Virus record (IMG/VR): IMGVR_UViG_3300027963_000198
Coordinates: 1-33,202 of that record
Strand: one strand, 5' to 3'
DNA: 33,202 nucleotides
Source of the DNA: a virus
Below are positions 1-11,445 of the stretch, in pieces. A program made the position numbers and the translations under genes. Numbering within the stretch: position 1 is the first letter of the stretch; each line of letters begins with the position of its first letter. Below the pieces are notes generated by a model. The model was given only the letters and a program-made list of their open reading frames with translations. It was not told the DNA's origin and made no database searches.

Positions 1-378
1 ATACGAGTTTATCCCAAACACCCTGGAATACATACGAATGTGTCTGAAAATTATAATGAAAAAATGGGGGAGATATACGGCAATCGTTTATCTAACTTAC
101 TTGATCTTAATACATTAAAATTAAACATAACAATATATGGTAGAACCGATATTGAAGCTGGTAGATTAATGAATATTAAATTTCCAGACATTTCGCCTGT
201 AGCATCAGAAGATAAAACAACAGAACATTTGGACAATAGATATAGCGGCACATACTTAATAACATCGTTACACCATAAAATTAATATTGTTAAACATATG
301 ATATCAATGGAAGTTATTCGGGATTCAATTGCTCCAGATAATCCTAATTTTAAAATTGATACTTTGCCCGAAGGTTAA
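1..378 (+). CDS. Baseplate hub subunit, gp27-like (C-terminal part, 5' end outside window)
   Basis: The reading frame is open from base 1 and ends at TAA 376-378, so this is the last 125 codons of a longer gene; the GTG at 40 is internal, not a start. The visible part has the pattern of the gp27/VgrG-type hub domain: a glycine-led strand (ITIYGRTDIEAGRLMNIKFP), then an acidic loop, then SGTYLITSLHHKI and a final strand MEVIRDS. Such hub domains form the trimeric cup that joins the tail tube to the central spike. The next gene is a gp5-like spike, the natural partner of gp27, which supports the call. T4 gp27 is about 390 residues, so roughly a third is visible. Identity rests on fold-like pattern and context, not on a strong signature. 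Confidence 0.5.
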   Translation: MRVYPKHPGIHTNVSENYNEKMGEIYGNRLSNLLDLNTLKLNITIYGRTDIEAGRLMNIKFPDISPVASEDKTTEHLDNRYSGTYLITSLHHKINIVKHMISMEVIRDSIAPDNPNFKIDTLPEG

Positions 379-379
379 T

Positions 380-2461
380 ATGAAGAATATATACGGAAAT
401 CAAAATTTTATTTGGTGGTTTGGAGTTGTTGAAGATAGAAAAGACCCTGAAAAATTAGGTAGGTGCAGAGTAAGGATAATTGGTTATCATACTGAAGATA
501 CAAAATTATTGCCAACTAAAGACCTTCCTTGGTCATTACCTATTACGCCTATTACCTCAGCAAGCACATCTGGAGTAGGTTCAACCCCGGTGGGACCTGT
601 AGAAGGTACTTGGGTAGTAGGGTGGTTCCTTGATGGAGATGAAAAACAACAACCTATAATGATGGGAACCCTAACGGGTAAGCCTGAAAAAAATCCTGCG
701 GCCGATAAAATAGAAACTGCTAAAAAAGTTGCATCTGGAGAAATATTAACTTCTAGTTCAGGCAATCCGGTATATGATTCATCGGGAGCTCCAGTATCAA
801 CAGGTACAGCTACTACAGATGAGTATGGTAATCCTACACAAATAGATTCTAATTATACACAAGATTCTGCCGTGGCAGGACACCCATCTAACCCAAAAAA
901 TAATGCGAGCGGCGCATTAAACGATCCTGCGTTATCGCAACAAAAAGGATTCCAAGATCCAAATAAAATATATCCCAAAATTGATTATAACGGAAAACCT
1001 GATACAAATAAATTAGCAACAGAAGATAGAACACATAAGTATTTTGCACTAAAGAAAAAGAATAGAAAAACATCAATTAAAAAAGCAGGATCTGGTACTT
1101 GGAGCGAACCAGAATCTGCGTATAACGCAAAATATCCATTTAATCAAGTTGTTGAAACTGAGGCGGGTCACGTGGTTGAATATGATAGTACTCCTAATGC
1201 AGAAAGAATACACATATATCATAAAAAAGGAACCTACATAGAAATAGATGTGAACGGTACAATGGTGAGGAAGGTTGCAGGGGATAATTATGAGGTAGTT
1301 GACAGAAACGGATATGTATATGTGAAGGGCGCATATAGTTTAACGGTTGGCGGCGCAACAAAAATTTTAGTAGAAAACGATGCGGACATTGAAGTTAATG
1401 GTAGTACAACACTTACCACTCATGGTTCAACATTAGTTCAATCTGCAACTACGGTTCAAGTTGTAGCAGAAGATATAAAGATATCCGGAAAATCTAGTAT
1501 TCAATTGACTAGCGACGGCCCTGTTAATATACAAGGAAGTAGTATTACATTAAATGCAAAAGCTGGCGCATTTGCGGCTAAGGCAAGTAAGGAAGTTGCA
1601 ATCCAATCAGGTTCTGCCTCGACTGCAAGTATTAAAGGCGGTTTAGAATTATTACTAGATGCAACTATCGTTAAAACAAAAATGGGGTCTTTAACAGTAT
1701 CTTCATCAAAACTTCCAGTATATGATCCACCCGAGGCAAAAACAGTAGACGCAAATAATGCATCTTTGAAAAATCTTGTTCGACCAGATGCACCTGCCGA
1801 TATATTCCTTGGAGATGGGTTGGAAACAGAAGCAGGGGATCTTGCAAAGAAACGTGTGGCCGGCGGTAGCATTGTTGAAAATACATCTTTAACAAGATCG
1901 GGCACAGCTGATACAACAGTTGATAATAAAGTAACACCTACAAAAGTTGATACTTCAGAATTTAATAATTATGACGATTTCCCAGATTCTTTAAAATTAT
2001 CGAAATATTATACACTAGGAGATGTATCTACAAGAGCCAGCGCGTCTTCATATGCGGTTCAAGATCAAAATGGACTAACAAAGAAAGATATTGTTGGCAA
2101 TTTAAAGCATTTGGCAGTAAATGTACTAGACCCGGTAAAAGACAAATATTCAGATGTTGTTATAACAAGCGGATTCCGAGGTGGAGTATCCGGATCCGAC
2201 CATAATAAAGGGCAAGCGGCAGACCTACAATTTACGGGTCGTTCTTATTCTGAGTATTATGAAATTGCAGAATGGATAAAGAATAATACTCCGTACAAGC
2301 AGGTTTTATTAGAATATGCCACGCGGCCGAGCGGGACAATTGCTTGGATACACGTTGCTGCAGCACAAGATGGTAGTAAATCTCCTATGCCTATAGGAAC
2401 TCTTGCAAATCATAGTATAAATTCGCCAGGCCAACGTAATGCGTTGGTAAATTTGCTGTAA
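380..2461 (+). CDS. 5: gp5-like central spike protein with C-terminal M15-type peptidase domain
   Basis: A 693-residue baseplate spike. The ATG at 380 is chosen over upstream in-frame starts because it follows the previous stop by one base and has AAGG at 371-374. The N-terminal ~130 residues are a gp5-type OB fold (FGVVEDRKDPEKLGRCRVRI, then WVVGWFLDGDEKQQPIMMG). A low-complexity Ser/Thr/Pro/Asn linker follows. Residues ~250-450 are strand-rich and repetitive, as in the triple-stranded beta-helix needle of gp5/VgrG. The C-terminal ~150 residues hold a peptidase M15-like signature: SGFRGG, then SDHNKGQAADLQ, then WIHV, giving probable zinc ligands His608, Asp615 and His658. T4 gp5 instead has a lysozyme domain between OB fold and needle; no such domain is seen here. 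Likely role: piercing the envelope and cutting peptidoglycan cross-links at infection. The spike call is firm and the catalytic domain call fairly firm; the bond cleaved is not known. Confidence 0.85.
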   Translation: MKNIYGNQNFIWWFGVVEDRKDPEKLGRCRVRIIGYHTEDTKLLPTKDLPWSLPITPITSASTSGVGSTPVGPVEGTWVVGWFLDGDEKQQPIMMGTLTGKPEKNPAADKIETAKKVASGEILTSSSGNPVYDSSGAPVSTGTATTDEYGNPTQIDSNYTQDSAVAGHPSNPKNNASGALNDPALSQQKGFQDPNKIYPKIDYNGKPDTNKLATEDRTHKYFALKKKNRKTSIKKAGSGTWSEPESAYNAKYPFNQVVETEAGHVVEYDSTPNAERIHIYHKKGTYIEIDVNGTMVRKVAGDNYEVVDRNGYVYVKGAYSLTVGGATKILVENDADIEVNGSTTLTTHGSTLVQSATTVQVVAEDIKISGKSSIQLTSDGPVNIQGSSITLNAKAGAFAAKASKEVAIQSGSASTASIKGGLELLLDATIVKTKMGSLTVSSSKLPVYDPPEAKTVDANNASLKNLVRPDAPADIFLGDGLETEAGDLAKKRVAGGSIVENTSLTRSGTADTTVDNKVTPTKVDTSEFNNYDDFPDSLKLSKYYTLGDVSTRASASSYAVQDQNGLTKKDIVGNLKHLAVNVLDPVKDKYSDVVITSGFRGGVSGSDHNKGQAADLQFTGRSYSEYYEIAEWIKNNTPYKQVLLEYATRPSGTIAWIHVAAAQDGSKSPMPIGTLANHSINSPGQRNALVNLL

Positions 2462-2527: not shown

Positions 2528-2929
2528 ATGGCCATTATAAACAGAGTTGTTAGGCGTTATACAGATTTAAATCTGTTATTTACACCACACCCGTATTCAA
2601 AAGATGTACTTACTAGAAAAAACATTGACGCAGTTAAGACATCTGTACAAAATCTCATTCTAACAAAAAATTATGAGCGGCCGTTTCACCCGGAAATAGG
2701 AAGTCAAGTTAATAATTTAATGTTTGAAAATATGATGCCGTCTACTATGGCGGCACTTGAGAAAAGTATAACAGATACTATAGATAAATTTGAACCAAGA
2801 GCTAAAATTTTAAAAATTAATATAATAGATAACTCCGATACTAATGCAATTGATATTGAAGTCTTGTTTTCTCTTAATAATGTCTCGGAACCAGTAACAG
2901 TAACCACAACTATTAATAGAGTAAGATAA
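2528..2929 (+). CDS. 25: Baseplate wedge subunit gp25
   Basis: A 133-residue protein with the GPW/gp25 family pattern: NYERPFHPEIGSQV followed by a long helix and a final beta section ending in TTTINRVR. T4 gp25 is 132 residues, so the length matches. In the T4 baseplate gp25 sits at the inner wedge core with gp6 and gp53 and contacts the first sheath ring. The gene overlaps the gp6 start by one base (TAATG at 2927-2931), so the two are probably translationally coupled. In T4 gene 25 lies in a different cluster; here it sits between the spike and gp6. No good Shine-Dalgarno precedes the ATG at 2528, which lies in an A/T run. Confidence 0.92.
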   Translation: MAIINRVVRRYTDLNLLFTPHPYSKDVLTRKNIDAVKTSVQNLILTKNYERPFHPEIGSQVNNLMFENMMPSTMAALEKSITDTIDKFEPRAKILKINIIDNSDTNAIDIEVLFSLNNVSEPVTVTTTINRVR

Positions 2930-7926: not shown

Positions 7927-10900
7927 ATGGCTGTAAATTTAACATCAAATCCATATTATGACGATTTTGACAGTACTAAGAATTTTTATAGAATTCTTTT
8001 TAAACCCGGTACTCCAGTTCAGGCAAGAGAATTAACACAAATACAATCAATTCTGCAAGATCAGATTAAGAAATTTGCGAATCACATATTTGTAGATGGT
8101 AGCAGAATATTAAGTGATGATCCTGTATCAATTACAGTTAATGATAAAGTCCGCTCAGTTAAATTGCAACCAGATGTGAATACAGCAAATTTACTACCCT
8201 ATTTAAATAAATTTGTTTCAGGCGTAACATCTAATATTATAGGTCGAGTTAATTTTGTATTTGATGCAGATAACCCTACCGTAACTGATCCTCCTACATT
8301 AGTTATATCTTTAATTAAGAGTGACGGACTAAGTGAATTTAATTCAGCAGAAACATTATATTTTTATGACACAATTGCTCAAGCAAACGCAAAAGCGGCG
8401 GCCGCATTAACTGTAACTACCGCAGGAGATAATTTTGTGTTTGCGGTTGCAACACTTGACGCATATTCTGATACAATCACTCTTATTTCTTCTACGGGAA
8501 CAATTCGTGTAGGAGATCAAATTGTAAATACTCCTAGTATAGAAGACGATGTATTTGTTACTAAAGTAAATTCTGCTACAAGTGTTACTGTGAATAAGAA
8601 TGTGGGTGTTACAGACACAAATTTTAATCTACAATTTAAATCAAGAAACACAAGCCCAACATTAATTCTTAATAGCAGTTCTGGTGTATATTATAAAAAC
8701 GGGTTCTTTATTAGAGTACCAACACAATCAATTGTGCCACAAAAATATACAGCATACCCTACAAAATCTATAGTCTTAAAATACGAAGAATCTATTGTGA
8801 ATTATAATGACGATAGTTCTCTATTAGATCCTGCATTTGGTAGTTCAAATTATTTAGCACCAGGGGCTGACAGACTAAAAATTAATTTAGTTTTAGATAG
8901 TGTAGATTTGACAAGCGACAATAAACCAGATATTACTGGAGAATATGTCGAAATTGTTAGATACAAAAACGGCAATGCGGATTTTATTGAGTCTGGATCT
9001 GATTCAAAATATGCAGATCTAGCAAGAACATTAGCTGATAGAACTTATGCGGAATCTGGTAATTATATTGTTGATCCATTTGAATTAGAAAGTGCAGGAA
9101 GTAGTTCTGATGGTAATTCTGTAAAGTTTTTTGCAAATCCTGGCAGAGCATTTGTCGGAGGATATGATGTTGCAACATTAGGAAAAACAGAATTAGATAT
9201 CCCAAAAGCAACAACAACTAATTATGCAAATACGTTTAATATTAATACTTTCTTTGGAACATATGTTTTAATAGATTCGCCGCAATTTGGATTGCCCGCA
9301 TTAACAGATATAGATTTTGCAAATTTCTATGCATGTCATAGTACAACAGATAGAACTGCAATGAATAATAATACAATTGTGGGGTATGTTATACCTAAAC
9401 ATATTGAATATGAAACTGGAACAAGCACAAGTGCTGCCTATAGATTTTATTGGTACTATTATGAGCAGGCCTCCACAACACTAACACCTGATAATATTAG
9501 ATCTGTGATTGGAGTACAAAATCCAATTTCAACCGATTATGGCAATACTGGAACATATAACGCACCTACATTTTTTGCAAATATACATCCTACGTTAGGA
9601 TTGACAGGTGGGCCTACAAGTAATAGTTATTTAAGATATTATGATGTTTCTCAAAGTAGAAATGTTTTTAGAATTGGTAAAACCAATGTAAAAAGCGTAA
9701 CTAATAATAGAGTAGTATACTCTAAATTATTTGCAAGTCAAGCAGTTACTGGAAGTACTGCAACCTTAACTTTAATTGCTCCTAATAAATTTGTAGGTGC
9801 GTTAGGCGCAACTGTTTCTAGTACACTAAAAAGAGATTATTATACAATAGTTGTAAAGTCTGCATCTTCCGGTACATATAGCACCGGCCGGTTTGTTCCA
9901 ACTGAAGATGTCACTATGACAGTTGATTCTTCCGGAACACAATTATCTATTTCGTTTGGCGGAAATTTAGTTACAGGAACAATTGATGTAATTGCTTCTG
10001 TTGAAAACGACATACTACCAAGAAGAACAAAAACATTAGTTGAAAATCAATCATATGTAGCAAATATAAATGTTGGCAAAGCAGATTATTCTGTATTAAA
10101 ATCTGACGTATTCAACTATAAAGGTATCTATAAAGTTGGTTCAAGTAATGTATTTGTGGGTAATTACAGTTCCGGTACTGTATATGTGGCAAATAATTTA
10201 GTTCAGGCAAACGGATTAATATATTATGCAAATGCTGGAAGTACTGGCCAATCTTTAACAAATACCGCTTATTGGAAACCTGTTGCAAAAGAATCGTTCT
10301 TAAAATATTATTTAGATTCGGGTCAATCTGATAATTGGTATGACCATGGCAAAGTTCGATTCTTAAATGACACTGCGCAAACTCCGGGCAATGTTATAAT
10401 TGTTTTTGATTATTTTACACATTCCGGTGAGGGAGCTATAGATGCAGAATCATATCCCGCGTCATTATATTCAAAAATTCCAACGTATACTTCTACGCTA
10501 GATGCGCAACAGTTTGTGTTAAGGGACTGTTTAGACTATAGACCACGCAGACAAGACGATACCTCAATTCCTCCGAATGGAATATATGCTAATCGATTAT
10601 CCAATATTTTCTATTTTGATAATTACATAAAACCAAATCCAACAGAAGTTCCTGGTACAGAAGCAGACATTGAATTTTATTTGGGCCGCATAGATAGATT
10701 ATATGTACAAAATAGAGATGCGAGTGCAGATGGTTCAAGAAATAAATTTAAAATTGATTATGGAATACCTGCAGTTAACCCCGTAGCTCCCCCAGATAAT
10801 ACAGATAGCACTCGTCAATTAATTGCAACTTTAAATGTTGCTCCGTATACTGCTGGCGCCTCAGACGTAAAAGTTGTTTCTAATGATGCTCCTAGATATA

Positions 10901-11445
10901 CGATGAAGGATATTAATGTTATTGATAAAAAACTTGCAGCATTAGAAAAACGAGTTAAAAAACAAGGATTGGATATTATAGCATTAAATAATGTTGTATT
11001 TGATAGAAATGGATCTAAAGGGAATGTGTTATATAAAACAGGTATTCTTGTAGATAATTTTTCTGATTATGGTTCAGGATATGTTAACAAGCCGGAATTT
11101 ACAGCTGCTATAGATACTGCTAGACAAGAATGTAGACCAGCGTTTGCGGCAATTCAACATAATTTGTTTTTTGTAACTGATCCTGATGTTGCAGTATTTA
11201 ATGATTTTATTACTATGAAATACACTGAGGAAGAATTTATAAGTCAAACAATAGCAAGCGGTACAAATGTAAATCCAAATCCATCAGGAATTACTGCAGA
11301 TAATGGAAGAGCAGTTATTTATCCTCCAGTTATTCCTCGGGTTGTTCCTCGCGTAAATGAGCCAGGTCAAATATTAGCATGGGGGCTTTCTAGAAATAAT
11401 CCAAATGATCGAAATGTAGATGCAAGTGAACAAGGCGGTGAGTAA
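7927..11445 (+). CDS. Large baseplate/virion structural protein, DUF4815 type
   Basis: An 1172-residue protein. The N-terminus NPYYDDFDSTKNFYRILFKP followed by GTPVQARELTQIQSILQDQI and IFVDGSRI is the hallmark of the DUF4815 family found in myoviruses of environmental bacteria. The middle is strand-rich with small repeats. A block around residue 870 (QQFVLRDCLDYRPRR) and a Lys/Arg-rich helix near residue 1000 (IDKKLAALEKRVKKQG), which looks like a short coiled coil, follow. The C-terminus is Pro/Val-rich. It follows gp8 and has AAGGT before its ATG. By position it stands where T4 has gp9-gp10, so it may link wedges to fibres; this is inference. The family name rests on the N-terminal motif. 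Confidence 0.75.
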   Translation: MAVNLTSNPYYDDFDSTKNFYRILFKPGTPVQARELTQIQSILQDQIKKFANHIFVDGSRILSDDPVSITVNDKVRSVKLQPDVNTANLLPYLNKFVSGVTSNIIGRVNFVFDADNPTVTDPPTLVISLIKSDGLSEFNSAETLYFYDTIAQANAKAAAALTVTTAGDNFVFAVATLDAYSDTITLISSTGTIRVGDQIVNTPSIEDDVFVTKVNSATSVTVNKNVGVTDTNFNLQFKSRNTSPTLILNSSSGVYYKNGFFIRVPTQSIVPQKYTAYPTKSIVLKYEESIVNYNDDSSLLDPAFGSSNYLAPGADRLKINLVLDSVDLTSDNKPDITGEYVEIVRYKNGNADFIESGSDSKYADLARTLADRTYAESGNYIVDPFELESAGSSSDGNSVKFFANPGRAFVGGYDVATLGKTELDIPKATTTNYANTFNINTFFGTYVLIDSPQFGLPALTDIDFANFYACHSTTDRTAMNNNTIVGYVIPKHIEYETGTSTSAAYRFYWYYYEQASTTLTPDNIRSVIGVQNPISTDYGNTGTYNAPTFFANIHPTLGLTGGPTSNSYLRYYDVSQSRNVFRIGKTNVKSVTNNRVVYSKLFASQAVTGSTATLTLIAPNKFVGALGATVSSTLKRDYYTIVVKSASSGTYSTGRFVPTEDVTMTVDSSGTQLSISFGGNLVTGTIDVIASVENDILPRRTKTLVENQSYVANINVGKADYSVLKSDVFNYKGIYKVGSSNVFVGNYSSGTVYVANNLVQANGLIYYANAGSTGQSLTNTAYWKPVAKESFLKYYLDSGQSDNWYDHGKVRFLNDTAQTPGNVIIVFDYFTHSGEGAIDAESYPASLYSKIPTYTSTLDAQQFVLRDCLDYRPRRQDDTSIPPNGIYANRLSNIFYFDNYIKPNPTEVPGTEADIEFYLGRIDRLYVQNRDASADGSRNKFKIDYGIPAVNPVAPPDNTDSTRQLIATLNVAPYTAGASDVKVVSNDAPRYTMKDINVIDKKLAALEKRVKKQGLDIIALNNVVFDRNGSKGNVLYKTGILVDNFSDYGSGYVNKPEFTAAIDTARQECRPAFAAIQHNLFFVTDPDVAVFNDFITMKYTEEEFISQTIASGTNVNPNPSGITADNGRAVIYPPVIPRVVPRVNEPGQILAWGLSRNNPNDRNVDASEQGGE

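Follow-up and report, generated by a model that had tools for sequence, protein, structure and literature searches.

The gp5-type central spike of a T4-like phage carries a predicted M15-type zinc peptidase C-terminal to its needle, at an enzyme site that varies among relatives independently of the site occupied by the lysozyme in T4. The gene lies in a 33,202-base IMG/VR virus fragment, referred to here as the window, and the source of the fragment is a T4-like phage with a contractile tail. We consider it probable, at roughly three in four, that the spike is a trimer in which each chain comprises a needle, a tether of ~100 residues, and an active M15A peptidase acting at entry, that the peptidase site is independent of the lysozyme site, and that a mid-slot domain has been lost. 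In the proposed mechanism the three chains of the spike would present three zinc peptidases, each following a needle and a flexible ~100-residue tether. Sheath contraction would drive the spike through the outer membrane and deliver the tethered peptidases to the periplasm, where they would cut peptide bonds of the peptidoglycan ahead of the tube and so allow the tail tube to pass. The window lineage would have retained its C-terminal peptidase, and a mid-slot domain would probably have been lost.

Gene neighborhood and domain layout

The plus strand of the window carries a run of genes for hub, spike, gp25- and gp6-type wedge proteins, gp8, neck, sheath stabilizer, tube, prohead protease, scaffold, and gp23. 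The spike gene, its neighbors, and its domains are as follows.

1 to 378, plus strand: tail hub protein in the gp27 position, C-terminal part, upstream of the spike (PHROG_350, tail protein)
380 to 2461, plus strand: gp5-type central spike gene, 693 amino acids, ATG start (open reading frame; PHROG_430, 5.8e-88; Gp5_OB, 1.5e-23)
380 to 715, plus strand: N-terminal OB-fold domain, residues 1-112 (Gp5_OB match; model strands 11-98)
716 to 949, plus strand: first linker, at the lysozyme position of T4 and relatives (no lysozyme match; mostly pLDDT <50 from residue 143; fast evolving)
950 to 1675, plus strand: needle, residues 191-432, comprising the pre-needle motif FQDPNKIYP..YPFN and a putative trimeric β-helix (weak Gp5_trimer_C match, 0.0072; PHROG_430; strands 255-432)
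1676 to 1978, plus strand: second linker or peptidase tether, residues 433-533 (low pLDDT at 427-484 and 503-511; 45-56% identity versus 68-83% for the M15 domain)
1979 to 2458, plus strand: predicted M15A-type zinc peptidase domain, residues 534-693 (Peptidase_M15_3; PHROG_894; AlphaFold2 pLDDT 97.3; Foldseek 1lbu, E 1e-4)
2528 to 2929, plus strand: baseplate wedge gene (gp25-type), downstream of the spike (PHROG_261, 2.5e-39)

No endolysin gene is present in the 33-kb fragment. A 1172-residue protein with matches to DUF4815 and PHROG_358 is encoded at window positions 7927-11445, adjoining the gp8 wedge gene.

The order of domains in the 693-residue spike is OB fold, disordered linker, β needle, second linker, and C-terminal M15A-type domain, placing the putative enzyme after the needle as the earlier note had proposed. 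The OB fold is that of gp5 (Pfam Gp5_OB, 1.5e-23). The β-helix needle of T4-type gp5 is represented by the PHROG_430 match, the regular strands at 255-432, and the weak Gp5_trimer_C match, and the needle is presumed to be trimeric. Between OB fold and needle neither the Pfam scan nor the single-chain full-length model revealed a lysozyme, again as the earlier note had read the sequence: residues 143-255 are modeled with pLDDT <50. Confidence is also low over most of residues 427-511, and the M15 domain is well folded in the model. A search for GH24 lysozymes was negative for the window and for two contigs (71 kb and 92 kb) from the same clade. Relative to five relatives, the amino acid identity of the M15 domain (68-83%) is comparable to that of the OB fold and needle, whereas both linkers have an identity of 37-62% and a much higher dN, evolving several times faster than the domains.

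The C-terminal domain and its putative active site

Profile and fold comparisons confirmed the assignment of the C-terminal domain as a predicted M15-type zinc peptidase. In a search with the whole spike, Pfam Peptidase_M15_3 matched residues 571-634 (1.7e-4) and scored 22.1 bits (cut-off, 23.2); the DNA-level search gave 25.2 bits, over the cut-off. The C-terminal domains of relatives match the M15 profile at up to 4e-11, and residues 536-665 of the spike match PHROG_894 (endolysin) at 7.9e-14. A single-sequence phmmer search of the C-terminal region against the PDB returned only an irrelevant pilin, and a profile of 63 relatives was required. AlphaFold2 modeled residues 534-693 with these 63 relatives at a mean pLDDT of 97.3 and a pTM of 0.92. 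The first Foldseek match in the PDB was the zinc DD-peptidase of Streptomyces albus (1lbu; E 1e-4, probability 1.00, TM 0.51), followed by Hedgehog signaling domains, which share the DD-peptidase zinc fold. The S. albus G enzyme (MEROPS M15A), a secreted, soluble protein, shares both the fold and the HxxxxxxD...H zinc motif with the spike domain, at 18% identity.

Residues R600, H608, G611, D615, W656, and H658 are invariant in the alignment of 63 relatives, putting the match far beyond chance. The residues of the putative active site are as follows.

2177 to 2179, plus strand: R600 of the TSGFR motif, probable substrate-binding arginine (invariant in 63)
2201 to 2203, plus strand: H608, predicted zinc ligand 1 (invariant in 63; aligned with a Hedgehog zinc histidine)
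2222 to 2224, plus strand: D615, predicted zinc ligand 2 (invariant in 63; aligned with the Hedgehog zinc aspartate)
2312 to 2314, plus strand: E645 of the LLEY motif, probable catalytic base (at least 90% conserved in 63; aligned with the Hedgehog active-site Glu)
2351 to 2353, plus strand: H658 of WIHV, predicted zinc ligand 3 (invariant in 63; aligned with a Hedgehog zinc histidine)

H608, D615, and H658 sit inside SDHNKGQAADLQ and WIHV and reproduce the H-x6-D ... H zinc motif of M15A (H608-x6-D615, then H658). A profile search gave weak matches to Hedgehog (E 0.012, near 0.01) in which H608, D615, and H658 line up with the Hedgehog zinc ligands and E645 with its active-site Glu. The geometry of the zinc site is predicted from the fold match together with this alignment. 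The same alignment and the invariance in 63 relatives indicate that the three ligands proposed in the earlier note are right; E645 and R600 were not named there.

M15 enzymes cut stem peptides or cross-links. The earlier suggestion of a cut in peptide cross-links was over-stated, as the choice between stem peptide and cross-link cannot be read from sequence. By likeness to 1lbu, D-Ala-linked bonds would be the most likely target.

In Hedgehog the M15-type fold is catalytically dead, and the spike domain could likewise be inactive, serving to bind the cell wall or a receptor or to cap the needle as it folds. We regard this as unlikely. Hedgehog domains do come next in the fold ranking, and C-terminal domains often aid fiber trimerization (PMC4576200). 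However, the best fold match is an active peptidase, and across 63 divergent sequences R600, H608, D615, and H658 are invariant and E645 is at least 90% conserved. Needles also occur in gp5 proteins that lack the M15 domain, and so do not require it.

Two enzyme sites on the spike

T4 gp5 consists of an OB fold (residues 1-129), a GH24 lysozyme (174-339), and a needle (389-575), with the PAAR protein gp5.4 as the tip (PMC4576200). The window spike resembles it in having an OB fold, a triple-stranded β needle, and a putative wall-cutting enzyme, but in T4 the lysozyme precedes the needle and only the PAAR tip gp5.4 follows it (PMC4576200).

A C-terminal M15 domain was also found in the gp5 proteins of Cr30, pf16, Melnitz, BUCT-ZZ01, and a Rhizobium phage. 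Many IMG/VR contigs encode it too, the arrangement being common to dozens of relatives. The M15 domain is present in 52 of 68 non-redundant spikes, a proportion that means little because M15 queries were among those used for sampling; it is coexistence that counts. The region from OB fold to needle holds an enzyme-sized insert in 27 of the 52 M15-tailed spikes, showing that the two sites vary independently. Pfam recognized in the mid slot of chains that also carry M15 a GH24 domain (L027, L034, L040, L043, L050, and L069), a GH19 domain (L052, L127, L121, L033, and BUCT-ZZ01), or Phage_lysozyme2 (Cr30), and the M15 position is therefore a second, independent site. The window, pf16, L024, L028, and others have M15 with no mid enzyme, and gp5 proteins with neither enzyme also occur. 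Mosig and HTVC008M, whose tail sheaths are the most similar among named phages, have such an enzyme-free gp5 and no M15 of this family in their complete genomes; a wall-cutting spike domain is thus not essential in all relatives.

These distributions bear on the reading of the earlier note that the peptidase stands in place of the T4 lysozyme, a single swap that shifted the enzyme from the middle of the spike to its C terminus. The absence of a mid lysozyme holds for the window and for the other M15 spikes with an empty mid slot. As a general rule, however, the swap is contradicted by the chains carrying both enzymes, and the mid inserts in about half of the M15 spikes and the gp5 proteins with neither enzyme make it decidedly improbable.

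The two named gp5 proteins nearest in design, those of the Pseudomonas phage pf16 (510 residues) and the Caulobacter phage Cr30 (701 residues), share with the window an OB fold, a needle, and a C-terminal M15 domain, which is 46 and 47.5% identical to that of the window, respectively. Unlike the window, Cr30 fills the mid slot with Phage_lysozyme2, and its gp5 gene is followed immediately by a PAAR gene; pf16 differs in its shorter linker, and its complete genome gave no PAAR match. The top fold matches in BFVD were A0A1S5R3Y7, named as pf16 gp5, and A0A067XR43, whose 701 residues equal the length of Cr30 gp5. Both gp5 proteins carry the public label "baseplate hub subunit and tail lysozyme."

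Milchi, two Vibrio phages, Aura, and PA5oct carry the M15 module as a fusion to PAAR. In the tree these fusions form one clade (98/100) apart from the spike M15 domains. The gp5 proteins of Milchi and the two Vibrio phages consist of OB fold and needle only, with neither enzyme. The PA5oct fusion, annotated "muramoyl-pentapeptidase," has virion detection by MS noted in its record, which together with the fusion itself links the module with the tail tip. In PA5oct, Milchi, Vibrio 1.244.A, and Aura the same module thus rides on PAAR rather than on the spike, presumably as one copy per tail. Fusions of this type lie at L006:7422-8444, L173:4455-5459, L174:4461-5450, L176:2446-3453, and L181:3464-4450, and the gp5 neighboring those of L173, L174, and L181 is enzyme-free.

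No PAAR gene was detected between the spike and gp25-type genes, elsewhere in the window, in the 71- and 92-kb clade contigs (L008 and L108 are in the clade), or in complete pf16; all but pf16 are fragments, and weak PAARs can escape detection. CIS_spike_tip (PF19267) revealed no alternative tip above cut-off. A first survey found no PAAR in any mid-empty record, most of these being fragments; the idea that PAAR and mid-empty spikes strictly exclude each other was dropped when a better PAAR profile detected weak PAAR genes adjoining mid-empty L028 and L128. The earlier note had placed the peptidase at the tip. It does follow the needle, but given the ~100 poorly conserved, low-confidence residues in between (433-533) and the separate PAAR tip of some relatives, we describe it as tethered near the tip and not as forming it.

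That the M15 domain is released or made separately as a lysis endolysin is very improbable, for although PHROG_894 bears the name endolysin and the M15 domain of L116 is in a separate overlapping frame, the window spike is a single continuous open reading frame with no ATG from residue ~436 to the catalytic core, its gene lies among baseplate genes, and elsewhere a tail-tip protein, PAAR, carries the same module.

In the evolved VgrG and specialized PAAR effectors of type VI secretion, an enzyme is likewise joined to the C terminus of the spike needle or of PAAR (PMC10210955). The likeness to evolved VgrG drawn in the earlier note is sound as an analogy of architecture, not as membership. Evolved VgrG kills rivals, whereas the window spike has a proposed role in phage entry, and in place of a gp27-gp5 fusion in a type VI secretion locus the window has a separate upstream hub gene among phage structural genes.

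The middle domain and other spike variants

In a tree of OB fold and needle, a 19-row clade (support 100/100) contains the window together with the mid-domain spikes L020, L117, L119, L133, L157, and L161. The window linker motif LTSSSGNPVYDSSGAPV matches the sequence directly before the mid-slot domain of these sisters; among 500 shuffles, none was as good for L020, L117, or L133, and 3, 7, and 15 were as good for L157, L119, and L161, respectively. In the flank alignment the first linker still carries GNPVYDSSGAPV, the motif flanking the mid-slot domain in sister phages. The right flank has no significant likeness to the window linker, and loss and gain are therefore inseparable on the flanks alone.

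The mid-slot domain of the sisters belongs to PHROG_27932, "tail lysozyme." In L020, L117, and L119 it matched no Pfam family and no PDB entry, and its designation as an enzyme relies solely on position and motif. Their Glu-bearing KESS motif is replaced in L133 (3021-5552), L157 (3776-6310), and L161 (2071-4602), in which the overall sequence of the domain is kept, and these domains are possibly decayed enzymes. Because sisters retain the mid domain and its flank motif survives in the window, the middle domain of the window spike was probably deleted and the M15 domain kept. Decay followed by deletion is the likeliest history, the direction of change being inferred.

More tentatively, and at somewhat less than even odds, T4-like tails in general may have two interchangeable spike sites, a mid slot for glycan cutters and a tip-side M15 module movable between needle and PAAR. 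Lineages of the window type would use three tethered peptidases alone after the mid enzyme had decayed, as in L133, L157, and L161 with their missing Glu motif, and then been deleted.

The arrangement, a variation on the T4 spike, is already in public records and UniProt-derived models, mostly labeled tail lysozyme. No description of gp5-M15 spikes was found in the literature searched, and the Melnitz paper does not mention the arrangement. Among the many genes so labeled are some that, like the window gene, have no lysozyme and a peptidase instead, and recognizing two independent enzyme sites alters the annotation of entry enzymes. It also allows one to ask directly whether a contractile tail can get through the wall by peptide cutting alone, and whether tether or PAAR tip is the better carrier, a question that parallels effector loading in type VI secretion.

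Several spikes depart further from the common layout. In L129 (3634-6492) and L138 (3649-6492) ~515 residues with a coiled-coil-like NPV_P10 match separate needle and M15 domain, suggesting a very long tether or an extra shaft. L116 (2956-5056) has spike and M15 domain in two overlapping frames, which suggests a frameshift, an assembly error, or a programmed slip. Melnitz-type phages encode gp5 as two proteins, OB-VanY and needle-M15; L004 (5482-8525) and L134 (587-3447) have this split form, OB fold with a VanY-type peptidase and needle with M15, and possibly carry two different M15-family enzymes on one spike.
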